From: Natronorubrum daqingense
GTDB lineage: Archaea; Halobacteriota; Halobacteria; Halobacteriales; Natrialbaceae
Assembly: GCF_001971705.1 (NCBI RefSeq)
Contig: NZ_CP019327.1
Location: 186,001-250,000 of the forward strand
Reading direction: 5' to 3'
Length of the DNA stretch: 64,000 nt
Made by a program: the position numbers and the translations under genes. Below are positions 4,306 to 63,579 of this stretch, piece by piece; the stretch's first letter is position 1; each line of letters starts with the position of its first letter. The notes beneath the pieces are model-generated. The model searched no databases. It saw nothing but the letters and a program-made list of their open reading frames with translations, and had not been told where the DNA came from.

Positions 4306-5463
4306 ATGGAGCTACTCGAGGACAGTATTGTCCCGGAGCACGCACGCGACGTCAAAGCCGAAGCCCGCGAGTTCGCGCGTGAACACATCGAACCAAACGC
4401 GCAGGAGCACTTTCAGGATGGAACGTATCCGGAGGAGATCCTCGAAGCGGGCCAGGAGGCCGGTCTCGTCGCACAGGACATTCCGGAAGCGTGGGGCGGT
4501 CGCGGATTCGACCTTCCCCAACTGCTCGCACTGACGGAGGAGTTCTATCGGGCGGATGCGGGCATCGCGTTGACGCTCCAACTGGCGAGTTTCGGCTGTG
4601 AGATCACGTACGAACACGGCACCGACGAGCAGTGCGAGGAGTTCGTTCGCCCGGTTGCCGAGGGGGAGATGCGTTCGGGGCTCGCGGTTTCAGAGCCCGA
4701 TACCGGCAGCGACCTTACGGGTATGGAGACCACCGCGGAACGAGACGGCGACGAGTACGTCCTCAACGGCGAGAAGTACTGGATCGGAAACGGCGTCGAA
4801 GCGGACTGGGTCACCCTCTACGCGCGAACGGACGACGACGAGACCAACCGCTACGGCAATCACTCGCTGTTCATCGTCCCGACAGACACCGACGGTTACG
4901 ACGCCGAACACATTCCCGAAAAGATGGCGATGCGCGCCTCGAAGCAGGCGCACATCGAACTCGAGGACTGTCGTATCCCCGCGGAAAACCTGATCGGCGC
5001 GGAAGGTGCGGGCTTCTGGCTGCTCGCCGAATTCTTCAATCACGGCCGCATCGTCGTCTCGGCACACGGCTTGGGATTGGGAGCGGCAGCGATCGAGGAA
5101 ACCTGGGAGTTCGTCCACGACCGCGAGCAGTTCGGCCGGTCGATCAGCGACTTTCAGGCGGTCCAACACGGCCTCGCGGAGATGTTGATGGCCTTCGAAC
5201 GCGCTCGAGCACTCACCTGGCGTGCCTGCCAGAAGGTCGAGAATGGCGACGACGTGGGATACTGGGCGGCATTGTCGAAGACGAACGCGACGGAGATGGC
5301 GGTCGACGTCGCCGAGCAAGGTATGCAGTTTCACGGCGGGCGGTCGATACTCGACGAGCGCCGAATCGCGCGCGTCTATCGCGACGTGCGCATTCCAGTC
5401 ATCTACGAGGGAGCGAACGAAATCCAGCGAAACCTGATCTACGGGCAGGCACCGAGGAGCTAA
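4306..5463 (+). CDS. Acyl-CoA dehydrogenase
   Basis: 385-residue flavoprotein of the acyl-CoA dehydrogenase family, which makes the alpha-beta double bond in acyl-CoA esters and passes electrons to ETF. The FAD/substrate segment SEPDTGSDLTGMETTAERDGD, the GADGAGFWLL-type loop (GAEGAGFWLL), DRKQFG-like DREQFGRSI and the C-terminal VIYEGANEIQRN with the probable catalytic Glu are all present. Length is normal for the family. Chain-length or branched-chain specificity cannot be read from the sequence, and no thiolase or hydratase is adjacent. Confidence 0.92.
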   Translation: MELLEDSIVPEHARDVKAEAREFAREHIEPNAQEHFQDGTYPEEILEAGQEAGLVAQDIPEAWGGRGFDLPQLLALTEEFYRADAGIALTLQLASFGCEITYEHGTDEQCEEFVRPVAEGEMRSGLAVSEPDTGSDLTGMETTAERDGDEYVLNGEKYWIGNGVEADWVTLYARTDDDETNRYGNHSLFIVPTDTDGYDAEHIPEKMAMRASKQAHIELEDCRIPAENLIGAEGAGFWLLAEFFNHGRIVVSAHGLGLGAAAIEETWEFVHDREQFGRSISDFQAVQHGLAEMLMAFERARALTWRACQKVENGDDVGYWAALSKTNATEMAVDVAEQGMQFHGGRSILDERRIARVYRDVRIPVIYEGANEIQRNLIYGQAPRS

Positions 5464-5532
5464 ACAGCGTCAGCGAACGAAACGGACGTTTCGGTATCGG
5501 GTTGGGAAAACGAGCGGAGCGAACGGGAACCG

Positions 5533-6108
5533 TTAGTTTTCGGATGAGATGTCTTGGAAGACGCCGACGAATTCGTCGTGATTTCGAAGGCTCGAGACGG
5601 TCGCGTCGGTCCGTTCCTCGAGTTCTTCGACGCGCGTACAGAGCGTCTGATACTCTTCGTTACCTTCCAGTTCTGGCGCGGATTTTTTGGACTCGATGAG
5701 GGCTTTCTTCGAGACGAGCGTGTAGTACGTCTGAACCTCCGATTCGTAGGTGGCTCGTTGGTCGATGTGGTCGACTACCGTGAGGAGTTCTTCCTCTGAG
5801 AGTGGTTTGACCAGGTAGTCGTCGAACCCCATTTCGATGATGTCGAAGTCGGGATCGACTGCCGTCGCCATGACGACGCGTACGTCGTACCCGTTGTCTC
5901 GAATCGTTTCGAGGACCTCCTCGCCGGTTTGATCCGGCATCCGACGGTCTAACAGAACGATTTCGATGGACGCCGTAAGTTTCTCGAGGGCTGATTCGCC
6001 GTCGTAGGCCGTCTCGACGGACCATCCGTCTTGTTGAAGCCACTCGGTGTACAGATCGGCAAGTTGATTCTCGTCGTCGACGACGAGGATGTCTGGTTCA
6101 GTGCTCAC
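5533..6108 (-). CDS. HalX-domain response regulator
   Basis: 191-residue response regulator. The receiver domain has the acidic pair Asp11/Asp12, the phosphoacceptor Asp54 (IVLLDRRMPD), the conserved Thr/Ala position (VMATAVD) and the Lys in YLVKPLS. The C-terminal ~70 residues form the helical HalX domain found with haloarchaeal receivers, ending in a probable coiled coil (TRVEELEERTD). There is no DNA-binding domain, so output is probably protein-protein. No histidine kinase is adjacent. It is divergent from the CPBP protease gene, with a 196-bp gap that contains an inverted repeat. Confidence 0.9.
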   Translation of the reverse strand: MSTEPDILVVDDENQLADLYTEWLQQDGWSVETAYDGESALEKLTASIEIVLLDRRMPDQTGEEVLETIRDNGYDVRVVMATAVDPDFDIIEMGFDDYLVKPLSEEELLTVVDHIDQRATYESEVQTYYTLVSKKALIESKKSAPELEGNEEYQTLCTRVEELEERTDATVSSLRNHDEFVGVFQDISSEN

Positions 6109-6218
6109 TTACTTTCCCCTCGGTTCGTCTCATCCATCACACTCATGAGCAATGAATTCTTCTACTGTATGATAAATCTCGCGACTATCCACGAGAACAC
6201 ATATTTACACTAACTGGT

Positions 6219-6241
6219 CTATGAAAACACGTTGTTCATAG
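6219..6241. promoter_or_regulatory. Inverted repeat, possible operator
   Basis: CTATGAA (6219-6225) and TTCATAG (6235-6241) are perfect 7-base arms separated by 9 bases. It lies between the divergent HalX regulator and the CPBP protease gene, about 65 bp before the latter's start, close to where a promoter would sit. The function as an operator is inference. Confidence 0.4.
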
Positions 6242-6304
6242 ACACCAATCAACACGCACTCCGGATCTCGAACCTATTTCTACCGGAGGTGTGAACGAGC
6301 AGGT

Positions 6305-7075
6305 ATGGGCTCGAGTCGGCGTTCGACGGCGATCTCCCACCGACTTCGCGTGCTGGGGCTCTGTTTCGCTCTCGCGATCGGTGGCTGGCTGACCGGATTC
6401 GCCGCGACGCTGGGTGTCGAACTCCACGCCCTCGCCGCTGGTTACGATATTCGGGCGATTATGCAGATCGGCTCGTCGGTCGCGTTCAACGTCGTCGGCG
6501 CTGCCGGGGTCGCGCTCACGTACCTCATCGTCCGTCGAAACGGGTTCGACCTGCCGTTCGCCCTCGAGTTTCTCCGAATTCGGAAGCCGACGGTCTGGGA
6601 CATGCTGTGGATCGCCGTCGGGCTGTGGGGGGCGTTCGCCGTCGTCATGGGGTATCAGGTGTTCATCGAGTTCGTCGATCCGTTTGGAACGGGTGGTGAG
6701 GGCGAGACGCACTCGTCGATCGAAGACGGACGACAGTATCCCTCGCTCTTTTTGGTTGCCATCCCGATTGCGCTCTTCCTGACCGGCCCTGGCGAGGAAC
6801 TGCTCTATCGCGGCGTCGTTCAGTCACGTCTCGGCGAGGTGTTCCCGTCGTCGCTCGCCGTCCTCCTCTCGTCGCTCGTCTTCGCGGCTGTCCACCTCCC
6901 GGTGTACATGGGCGAAGAGTTCGGTGCCGTGCTCGTCAGTCTCGGCACGGTGTTCGCACTCGGACTCTACCTCGGTATCCTCTACGAACTCTCCGATACC
7001 CTCGTCGTCCCCGCACTCATCCACGGCGGCTACAACGCCCTCGTCTACTACTCGAACTACGTCACGTACGCCTGA
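6305..7075 (+). CDS. CPBP family intramembrane metalloprotease
   Basis: 256-residue multi-pass membrane protein of the CPBP (CAAX protease/bacteriocin-processing, Abi) family. The motif-1 glutamates and arginine are in GEELLYRGVVQSRLG (Glu164/Glu165, Arg169), motif 2 has His197 in FAAVHLP, and motif 3 His is in ALIHGGYNALVY. Around 7-8 hydrophobic segments are visible, with an acidic soluble loop near residues 125-145. The substrate is unknown. A second family member lies at 49,716-50,648 next to lonB. Confidence 0.9.
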   Translation: MGSSRRSTAISHRLRVLGLCFALAIGGWLTGFAATLGVELHALAAGYDIRAIMQIGSSVAFNVVGAAGVALTYLIVRRNGFDLPFALEFLRIRKPTVWDMLWIAVGLWGAFAVVMGYQVFIEFVDPFGTGGEGETHSSIEDGRQYPSLFLVAIPIALFLTGPGEELLYRGVVQSRLGEVFPSSLAVLLSSLVFAAVHLPVYMGEEFGAVLVSLGTVFALGLYLGILYELSDTLVVPALIHGGYNALVYYSNYVTYA

Positions 7076-7143
7076 GAACTCGTCCGACGCTCGTTCCCCC
7101 GGTCGAGTTCGATCTCCGACTCGAGGTGCCAGAATTCCCCCTC

Positions 7144-7866
7144 CTACAGCTCTCGTTCGTCCCGAATCGAATCGTCGCCACGAGTGTCGTCGAGAGTTGC
7201 GGAGGTCGTTTCAGTCCACCGGGGCTGGTCGACCGACTCGGCTCTCGAGGGTCGATCCCCGTTTTCTTCGTCGAACAGCCGTCGCTCGAGTTCGGTGCGC
7301 TGGCGAAGGATCGCCCCGATTGCGACGGTCGCGAGCCCCATCGCGACGAGGGCTCCCAAAATCGGAATCAGTTGACTCGAGGCGAGAACGAGTACGCCGG
7401 CCAGGAGCGCCCACCAGAGTGATGGCTCCTCGCCGGTGACGCTCTCGAGGAGGTGGTGGCTCACGGCGAGCGCACCGAGCGTCGCGCCGAAGGCCAACAG
7501 GAGTCCCCAGAAGAACAGGCCGGGAAGCGAAACGATCCCCGCCAGCGCAACGAGAGTCGCCTGCTCGTACACCGTCGTGACGATCAACGGGGAGGAAACG
7601 ACGACCAGAACGCCGAAGAATCCCAGAAACCCGATCGCGAACGTTCGATCCGGGTGGGCACTGATTTCAGTCCCAATCGAACGCGTGAACGACGACGACC
7701 CGGCGACGAAAAGGACACCGAGGACTCCAGCGGTGACGGCAACAGCGAGACTCAACAGTACTGGCCGCGGGAGGTCGATACCCGCAACGAAGAGTTGCCG
7801 TGGGAGACTCGAGACTGTCGCCGAAACTGCCTGCTCGAGCGACACGCCGGCGGGAACTGGAAACAC
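7144..7866 (-). CDS. Membrane protein, function unknown
   Basis: 240-residue protein with about five hydrophobic segments in residues 30-190 and a charged, probably cytoplasmic tail of ~45 residues rich in Asp, Glu and Arg. No family motif was recognised. It converges with the CPBP protease gene upstream and is divergent from the 38-residue membrane peptide gene. It resembles the polytopic, bactofilin-free membrane proteins common in haloarchaea, but no assignment is justified. Confidence 0.75.
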   Translation of the reverse strand: MFPVPAGVSLEQAVSATVSSLPRQLFVAGIDLPRPVLLSLAVAVTAGVLGVLFVAGSSSFTRSIGTEISAHPDRTFAIGFLGFFGVLVVVSSPLIVTTVYEQATLVALAGIVSLPGLFFWGLLLAFGATLGALAVSHHLLESVTGEEPSLWWALLAGVLVLASSQLIPILGALVAMGLATVAIGAILRQRTELERRLFDEENGDRPSRAESVDQPRWTETTSATLDDTRGDDSIRDEREL

Positions 7867-63020: not shown

Positions 63021-63095
63021 AGCGGGATGGGATAGCCAGGAGATTCCGGCGGGCTCATAACCCGCAGACCGGTAGTTCAAATCTACCTCCCGCTA
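63021..63095 (+). tRNA. Initiator tRNA-Met (CAT anticodon)
   Basis: 75-base tRNA with an acceptor stem AGCGGGA/TCCCGCT (63021-63027 and 63088-63094), discriminator A, anticodon stem GCGGG/CCCGC with three G-C pairs next to the loop CTCATAA, and T-arm GGTAG/CTACC with loop TTCAAAT. The A1-T72 pair and the GGG/CCC anticodon stem are typical of initiator tRNAs. No intron and no encoded CCA. It starts the repeat array downstream. Confidence 0.96.
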
Positions 63096-63465
63096 CTTTT
63101 CGACGCGAGCAATAACGAAGAACGGAGTTATGAGTGACGTGAGCGTCGAAAATACGCTGAGTAGATTTGAAGTAGACGACGAGGGGGCACAGCGACCGAA
63201 GTCGCCGTAGTTCAAATCTACCTCCCGCTATGTTTTGGCGCGAACAAGCACGTGAGCGCCATCCATAGCACGGGGTAGATTTGAATCAGGGAACAGCGTT
63301 GCTGTGACCGTGGTTAAAATCTACCTCCCGCTACTTTTCGAGACGAACAATACCGCCGAGCGAAGCGAGGGGTCCGTGAGTCTCGAAAATACGACGAGTA
63401 GTTTGAACGAGAGAAGACCGGAGTGAAACGACGGTCTTCACGTAGTTCAAAGCTACCTCCCGCTA
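63096..63465 (+). repeat. Tandem array of tRNA 3'-end repeats with paired hairpins
   Basis: Three further copies of the tRNA's last 24 bases (T-arm plus 3' acceptor strand) lie at 63207-63230 (identical), 63310-63333 (two changes) and 63442-63465 (one change), 103-135 bases apart. The next ~20 bases are also conserved in all four (ending gcgaacaata-like). Each unit holds hairpin 1: A 63097-63106/63143-63152, B 63236-63241/63256-63261, C 63335-63344/63380-63389. Hairpin 2 is an inverted copy of the T-arm sequence paired with the direct copy: A 63161-63171/63211-63221, B 63274-63282/63317-63325, C 63398-63408/63445-63456. An inner stem-loop sits inside hairpin 2 in every unit. Confidence 0.85.
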
Positions 63466-63579
63466 CGTTTCATTGCAAACAACAACGAGGAATAGAGTAC
63501 CGAGTATGGTGAAAAAGCGTTCTGAACAGGGAGGACGAGTCCAACACCTCAACTTCGCGCTGGTTATAGAGTTACCGTC

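Follow-up and report, generated by a model that had tools for sequence, protein, structure and literature searches.

Tail-closed palindromic units behind haloarchaeal tRNA genes as possible DNA cassettes recombining at the T-loop

Mobile DNA docks mainly at tRNA genes, and the question raised by the locus described here is what to make of an initiator tRNA gene whose own 3' end recurs several times behind it. The window, that is, the whole stretch of 64,000 nucleotides of Natronorubrum daqingense that was analyzed, holds the initiator tRNA-Met gene (anticodon CAT) at 63021..63095 on the forward strand, as called by ARAGORN and by Rfam (RF00005, 58.5 bits), with the T-loop TTCAAAT at 63076-63082. 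As reported in the initial annotation, the last 24 bases of this gene (copy 0, 63072..63095, comprising the 3' part of the T-arm and the 3' strand of the acceptor stem) recur three times on the same strand, at 63207..63230 (24/24), 63310..63333 (22/24) and 63442..63465 (23/24). Spacings are 135, 103 and 132 bp; if the count starts at base 63071, the copies differ from the original at 1, 3 and 2 positions. The roughly 20 further conserved bases that had been noted after each copy are real as well: they form the 5' arm of the palindrome that we term P1. What had been missed is that every unit contains, in addition, an inverted copy of the tail and a pair of palindromes, an arrangement found at most other tRNA genes of this genome too. 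The unit plan reads tail, P1 palindrome, T-arm reverse complement (GTAGATTTGAA), P2 palindrome, tail, with T-loop sequences alternating between forward and inverted along the array.

Unit 1 comprises a type A P1 (63096..63158, arms TTTTCGACGC at 63097-63106 and GCGTCGAAAA at 63143-63152), which is also present at tRNA-iMet in other Natrialbaceae genomes, the T-arm reverse complement GAGTAGATTTGAA (63159..63171, forming inverted repeats) and a type b P2 (63172..63210). In unit 2, a type B P1 (TGTTTTGGCGC...GCGCCA) plus linker (63231..63271) is followed by the T-arm reverse complement GGGGTAGATTTGAA (63272..63285, with a wider inverted repeat from 63264) and a type a P2 (63286..63313), in which TCAGGGA and GACCGTGG enclose a hairpin. 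Unit 3 consists of a type A-like P1 (TTTTCGAGAC...GTCTCGAAAA, 63334..63395), an eroded T-arm reverse complement (GAGTAGTTTGAA, 63396..63407) and a type d P2 (GAAGACC...GGTCTTC, 63408..63445); 3' of the last tail copy lies a P1-like remnant similar to type A (63466..63515). All these elements are given on the forward strand. The reverse complement of the tail matches at 15/24 in unit 1 and 18/24 in unit 2, and more weakly (11/24) in unit 3. Neither an ORF of at least 60 aa nor an integrase is found inside the array, in line with the earlier observation that no integrase or cargo separates the copies, and the only Rfam matches at gathering score in the window are tRNAs.

The array is not a curiosity of one gene. 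Copies of the own tail stand behind about 28 of the 42 tRNA genes of the N. daqingense genome (G000), a few of them weak, in stacks of 1-6 units, and behind 22 of the 42 in its sister genome G003. Chance is excluded because two controls give almost none: placing another tRNA's tail behind the same genes returns 2/42 in G000 and 1/42 in G003, and reversed tails reach at most 12-16/24 downstream of any G000 tRNA, as against 19-24/24 for most real copies. Within G000 the P2 signature TTTGAATCAGGGA occurs behind Gln, Arg (three isoacceptors), Glu and Asp tRNAs, each unit being closed by the tail of its own tRNA. Exact matches to this signature are present in 31 of 53 Halobacteria genomes and in 0 of 242 other Halobacteriota, the reversed pattern giving 0, and a scan of named species with the P2 pattern gave at least 120 sites across Natrinema, Halorubrum, Haloferax, Haloarcula, Halobellus and others. 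Most of 80 such matches lie tens to a few hundred nucleotides behind a tRNA and come with its tail, a rate biased by the choice of these loci through the P2 pattern; the G000, G003 and G005 sets are unbiased. All arrays were read from assemblies. Two apparent extensions were discarded: the tail copies called in the distant relative G174 (6/32 tRNAs) are, by eye, tRNA genes that follow rather than units, and the P2-pattern match in one viral contig (L107) lies simply behind a tRNA-Glu. At G000:C1:2500567-2501146 a tRNA-Asp gene has been duplicated along with part of its array. The proposed family of tRNA-tail-derived repeats fits these findings, with tail copies following the majority of tRNA genes in G000 and conservation across Halobacteria, and the window repeat appears to be one case of a class-wide recombining system at tRNA tails.

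The two palindromes of a unit behave differently. At iMet, P1 and P2 assort independently. Over three Natronorubrum gene sets, close relatives of a given P1 are found at the same tRNA in another species (31 cases) or between the two Lys tRNAs, which have the same tail (3 cases), while those of P2 sit at another tRNA of the same genome (12 cases) or of another genome (9 cases). In P2 pairs near-identity runs from GATTTGAA to TTCAAATC, with approximately 20% identity outside in the clearest pairs; clear examples are Ile versus Phe in G000 and Val(cac) versus Arg(cct) in G005 (Natronorubrum texcoconense). In the second of these examples, the T-loop base that varies tracks the tRNA on both sides, and the interior is identical. 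Such T-loop-bounded identity is the pattern that strand exchange within the T-loop would give. In these comparisons P1 and the tail stay with their own tRNA, and P2 jumps between tRNAs. Free movement of whole units from one tRNA to another was considered and rejected, P1 tracking the tRNA; a given P1 type remains at a single tRNA from one genus to the next, so whole-unit movement is rare. Inversion of P2 was likewise considered and rejected, as an inverted-type start was looked for and not found. Three further loci (L390, L394 and L408), at which no tRNA was found upstream and no T-loop borders are present, also carry the inner hairpin of P2, GGAAGTCGCAGC...GTCTTCC. These hairpins suggest a wider REP-like family, and since they occur away from tRNAs, part of the P2 spread may be of another kind.

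Comparison of G000 with G003 shows units coming and going. Flanks are often shared while whole tail-to-tail units differ exactly, mostly beside the tRNA; at Glu(ttc), for instance, positions 112-1421 of G000 equal 1-1311 of G003. G000 holds the extra unit at Glu(ttc), Ile, Val(tac), His, both Asp genes, iMet, Lys(ttt) and Arg(tcg), the flank alignment at Lys and Arg being weak (73-76%), and G003 holds it at Ser(cga) and Phe. The initial annotation had offered repeated capture and loss at one att site, which comes close and fits these exact unit differences. At Val(tac) the array reads B in the outgroup G005 and in G003, and A+B in G000, which fits the gain of a unit next to the tRNA in the latter. 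At iMet, unit 1 was probably lost in G003, because it is also present in G005. Reading Val(tac) as gain and iMet as loss, both processes act, with gain and loss polarized at these few loci and most events left unpolarized. The differences lie mostly next to the tRNA and the copies show the polar decay described below, as insertion next to the anchor might produce, but loss acts as well.

Could this turnover arise with no dedicated recombinase at all? Such a route would combine template switching at palindromes, slippage during replication, unequal exchange and gene conversion, all acting on the strongly palindromic tRNA 3' end to make, multiply, even out and remove units, and several observations agree with it. 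Tandem units are identical at Lys(ttt) and near-identical at Asn, and repeat-mediated deletions have been reported in Haloquadratum (PMC3119063). Old tail copies at Gly(tcc) in G005 bear the new variant of the local tRNA, which suggests that gene conversion acts too, and the near-perfect Watson-Crick palindromes, without wobble preference, fit template-directed correction. Local processes, however, cannot generate the specific P2 sequences that are met again at many tRNAs and in different families; P2 blocks that are nearly identical and bounded by T-loops stand at different tRNAs, and an array at a protein gene, discussed next, is absent from relatives. We regard a wholly recombinase-free origin as a rather doubtful, if serious, alternative, and lean instead towards reading the array as stacked DNA cassettes for which the T-loop of the tRNA gene serves as recombination site and which are lost between direct repeats.

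The array at a protein gene is instructive in this respect. In N. texcoconense (L111, C4 about 169262) a three-unit array without a tRNA is found where a small protein gene (...YRFEPV) ends, the last codons of this gene reading GGTTCGAACCGGTCT, a T-loop look-alike. Two Natronorubrum species have units at this site, three in G005 and one in G002, against none in G000, G003, G004, G007 and the other relatives read. A 15-bp core is repeated after every unit; the original duplication may have been 13-15 bp or longer, and the last copy may have eroded. No Rfam match was found at this array. Because the array sits at the GGTTCGAACCGGTCT site of a protein gene, a T-loop-like sequence suffices without a tRNA.

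Whether the units act as DNA or as RNA can be read from their stems. Transcribed RNA elements, be they terminators, decoys for RNase Z or the CCA enzyme, or small RNAs arising from tRNA read-through, would agree with the fixed orientation of the units behind tRNAs, with the T-rich start of many P1 palindromes and with the strong folding of the units (mean z of −4.1 versus mononucleotide shuffles). Stems covary as well. Among the P2 types, which were set by eye and leave about 123 of 329 units outside them, type a, with 95 distinct inserts, has a Watson-Crick first pair in 86 and a Watson-Crick second pair in 90 of them, pairs of several types being represented, and the first four pairs of types b-d are Watson-Crick in 50-55/56. 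The E. coli tyrT tail repeats, moreover, yield an annotated RNA, RttR. The mismatches point the other way. In a count that treats both mismatches alike, G-U to A-C stands at 100:104 for arm versus tail, 21:18 for P1 and 18:14 for P2, as against 71:3 for two tRNA stems (acceptor and T) in these data. Selection for pairing in RNA would favor G-U, and no such preference is seen in the stems; the units behave as DNA rather than as RNA. The stems carry no sign of selection as RNA, decoy and terminator were both rejected on the wobble statistics with their tRNA control, and the earlier suggestion of a transcribed array mimicking tRNA 3' ends is not supported. Tail copies further decay with distance, identity falling from 19.3 through 18.7 and 18.0 to 17.3 of 21 at positions 1-4, a decay possibly understated by the similarity threshold used to call copies; the first copy resembles the tRNA tail more closely than the last does in 53 arrays and the reverse holds in 6 (p = 1.8e-10). 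Many tRNAs lack a unit, sister species differ freely, the array at the protein gene is without RNA match and no Rfam family other than tRNA is seen, all of which makes an RNA role very unlikely. The inverted arm matches its own tRNA (3.2/5 versus 2.3/5 T-stem bases), a fit for which simple integration does not account and which counts against the cassette reading.

Attachment sites commonly lie in tRNA tails (PMC8371274), and one may ask whether the units are scars of ordinary viruses or plasmids that repeatedly integrated at tRNAs and then lost all between their ends. Such elements do exist in these genomes. At G000:C1:1918712-1947000 (L106, L228 and L229) tRNA-Thr(CGT) is separated by approximately 28 kb from its own displaced array, and the span between this tRNA and a 14-bp tail copy holds an integrase ORF (L106:4064-5308) beside the right junction (core TCCCTCCACCGGCT). 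Haloterrigena salina (L143, reverse strand, about 4750-7840) carries a 3.1-kb insert at tRNA-Val(CAC) with units downstream; a 486-aa ORF resembling a P-loop ATPase and apparent integrase remnants are seen in this insert. The junctions of the 28-kb element differ from unit ends, and the possibility raised at the outset that the copies match the ends of known integrated elements was looked at with the same outcome: in both elements compared, the ends differ and the arrays are displaced, and units were accordingly dismissed as element ends. Ordinary elements appear, from these two cases, to use the same tails and to push units downstream. Similar unit size and anatomy at many tRNAs, the lack of a match to the array in a phage collection or in haloviruses and the absence of the iMet tail from viral contigs also count against scars, which we consider highly improbable.

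Known systems offer partial parallels. In an integron array, units are gained and lost by way of a fixed site, an imperfect hairpin bearing inverted core sites closes each unit, and a copy of the core is regenerated. Change by whole units beside a fixed site, hairpin-ended units and a regenerated core copy are shared with integrons (attI/attC). Integrons, however, have a GTTRRRY core and gene cassettes, whereas the haloarchaeal units have a T-loop core, are gene-free (103-135 bp in the window) and use many tRNA anchors. No integron integrase (TIGR02249) scored above cut-off in any of 21 genomes and no ORF of at least 60 aa lies in the array, so an integron in the strict sense was rejected. SMRs and PATEs are likewise short, palindromic and transposase-free haloarchaeal sequences, and SMR-A (approximately 110 bp) has inverted ends and a preference for palindromes (Dyall-Smith et al. 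2011, PMC3119063). Neither SMRs nor PATEs duplicate their target, and the targets of SMR-A are other mobile elements, whereas the present units are bounded by tRNA tail copies, the tail or the 15-bp core being repeated at each unit. SNJ2-type and other tRNA-integrating elements also insert at the 3' end of a tRNA gene, where a copy of the tail is left behind, but measure kilobases, carry integrase genes and have other ends; both kinds occur in these genomes. REP/BIME sequences are comparable as dispersed non-coding hairpins, while the units are tied to T-loops. Archaeal integrons (PMC9668308), SMRs/PATEs (PMC3119063) and SNJ2-type integration (PMC8371274) are relatives in logic only.

The closest likeness is bacterial. 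At tyrT of E. coli K-12 (L290; recomputed for one locus in one genome) tandem 178-bp units are each closed by the tRNA-Tyr tail, each holds a perfect 10-bp tail reverse complement (GGGGAAGGAT / ATCCTTCCCC), and the tail copy starts within the T-loop. The tyrT/tyrV repeats thus share with the haloarchaeal arrays tandem tail-closed units behind a tRNA, each with an inverted tail copy. At tyrT the units are nearly identical, the tail includes CCA, and tpr and RttR are annotated in the region, whereas the haloarchaeal units stand at most tRNAs, are diverse and swap P2 hairpins. The haloarchaeal arrays look like a widespread, diverse version of the tyrT architecture, a likeness of architecture for which common descent is not claimed.

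Returning to the reading of the array as T-loop-recombining cassettes, new units or P2 hairpins would enter beside the tRNA by site-specific strand exchange in the T-loop, following an integron-like logic without genes and probably by way of a tyrosine recombinase, and units would be deleted between direct tail repeats, repeat-mediated deletion having been reported in haloarchaea (PMC3119063). A candidate enzyme, and a candidate only, is a 345-aa tyrosine recombinase (G000:C1:998100-999134) that came up in a search rather than in an unbiased screen. It is present in 53/53 Halobacteria, in single copy in nearly all, and has no homologue at E ≤ 1e-60 in 242 other genomes, a stringent threshold that inflates the contrast. 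The protein matches the Pfam phage integrase and is XerA-like, scoring under the NCBIfam XerA equivalog cut-off (113 versus 220 bits), and may simply be the chromosome resolvase. More tentatively still, one could picture a class-wide, gene-free, integron-like system in which a conserved chromosomal tyrosine recombinase docks at the tRNA T-loop, the folded P2 hairpin is the mobile substrate, cassettes are written and erased, and the tyrT repeats are a bacterial relative; we put this fuller picture forward as speculative.

For the host, the array is most likely a tolerated, self-propagating repeat. A repeat on most tRNA genes of the surveyed Halobacteria appears unreported, no prior description having been found in the open-licence PMC literature. 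In haloarchaea, finding the tail of a tRNA repeated downstream of its gene is, by itself, no evidence of an integrated virus. If the proposed recombination is true, the old tyrT oddity of E. coli would be one case of a broader phenomenon, and Halobacteria would offer many natural recombination events between close relatives to study, a fast-changing strain marker and a testable recombinase.
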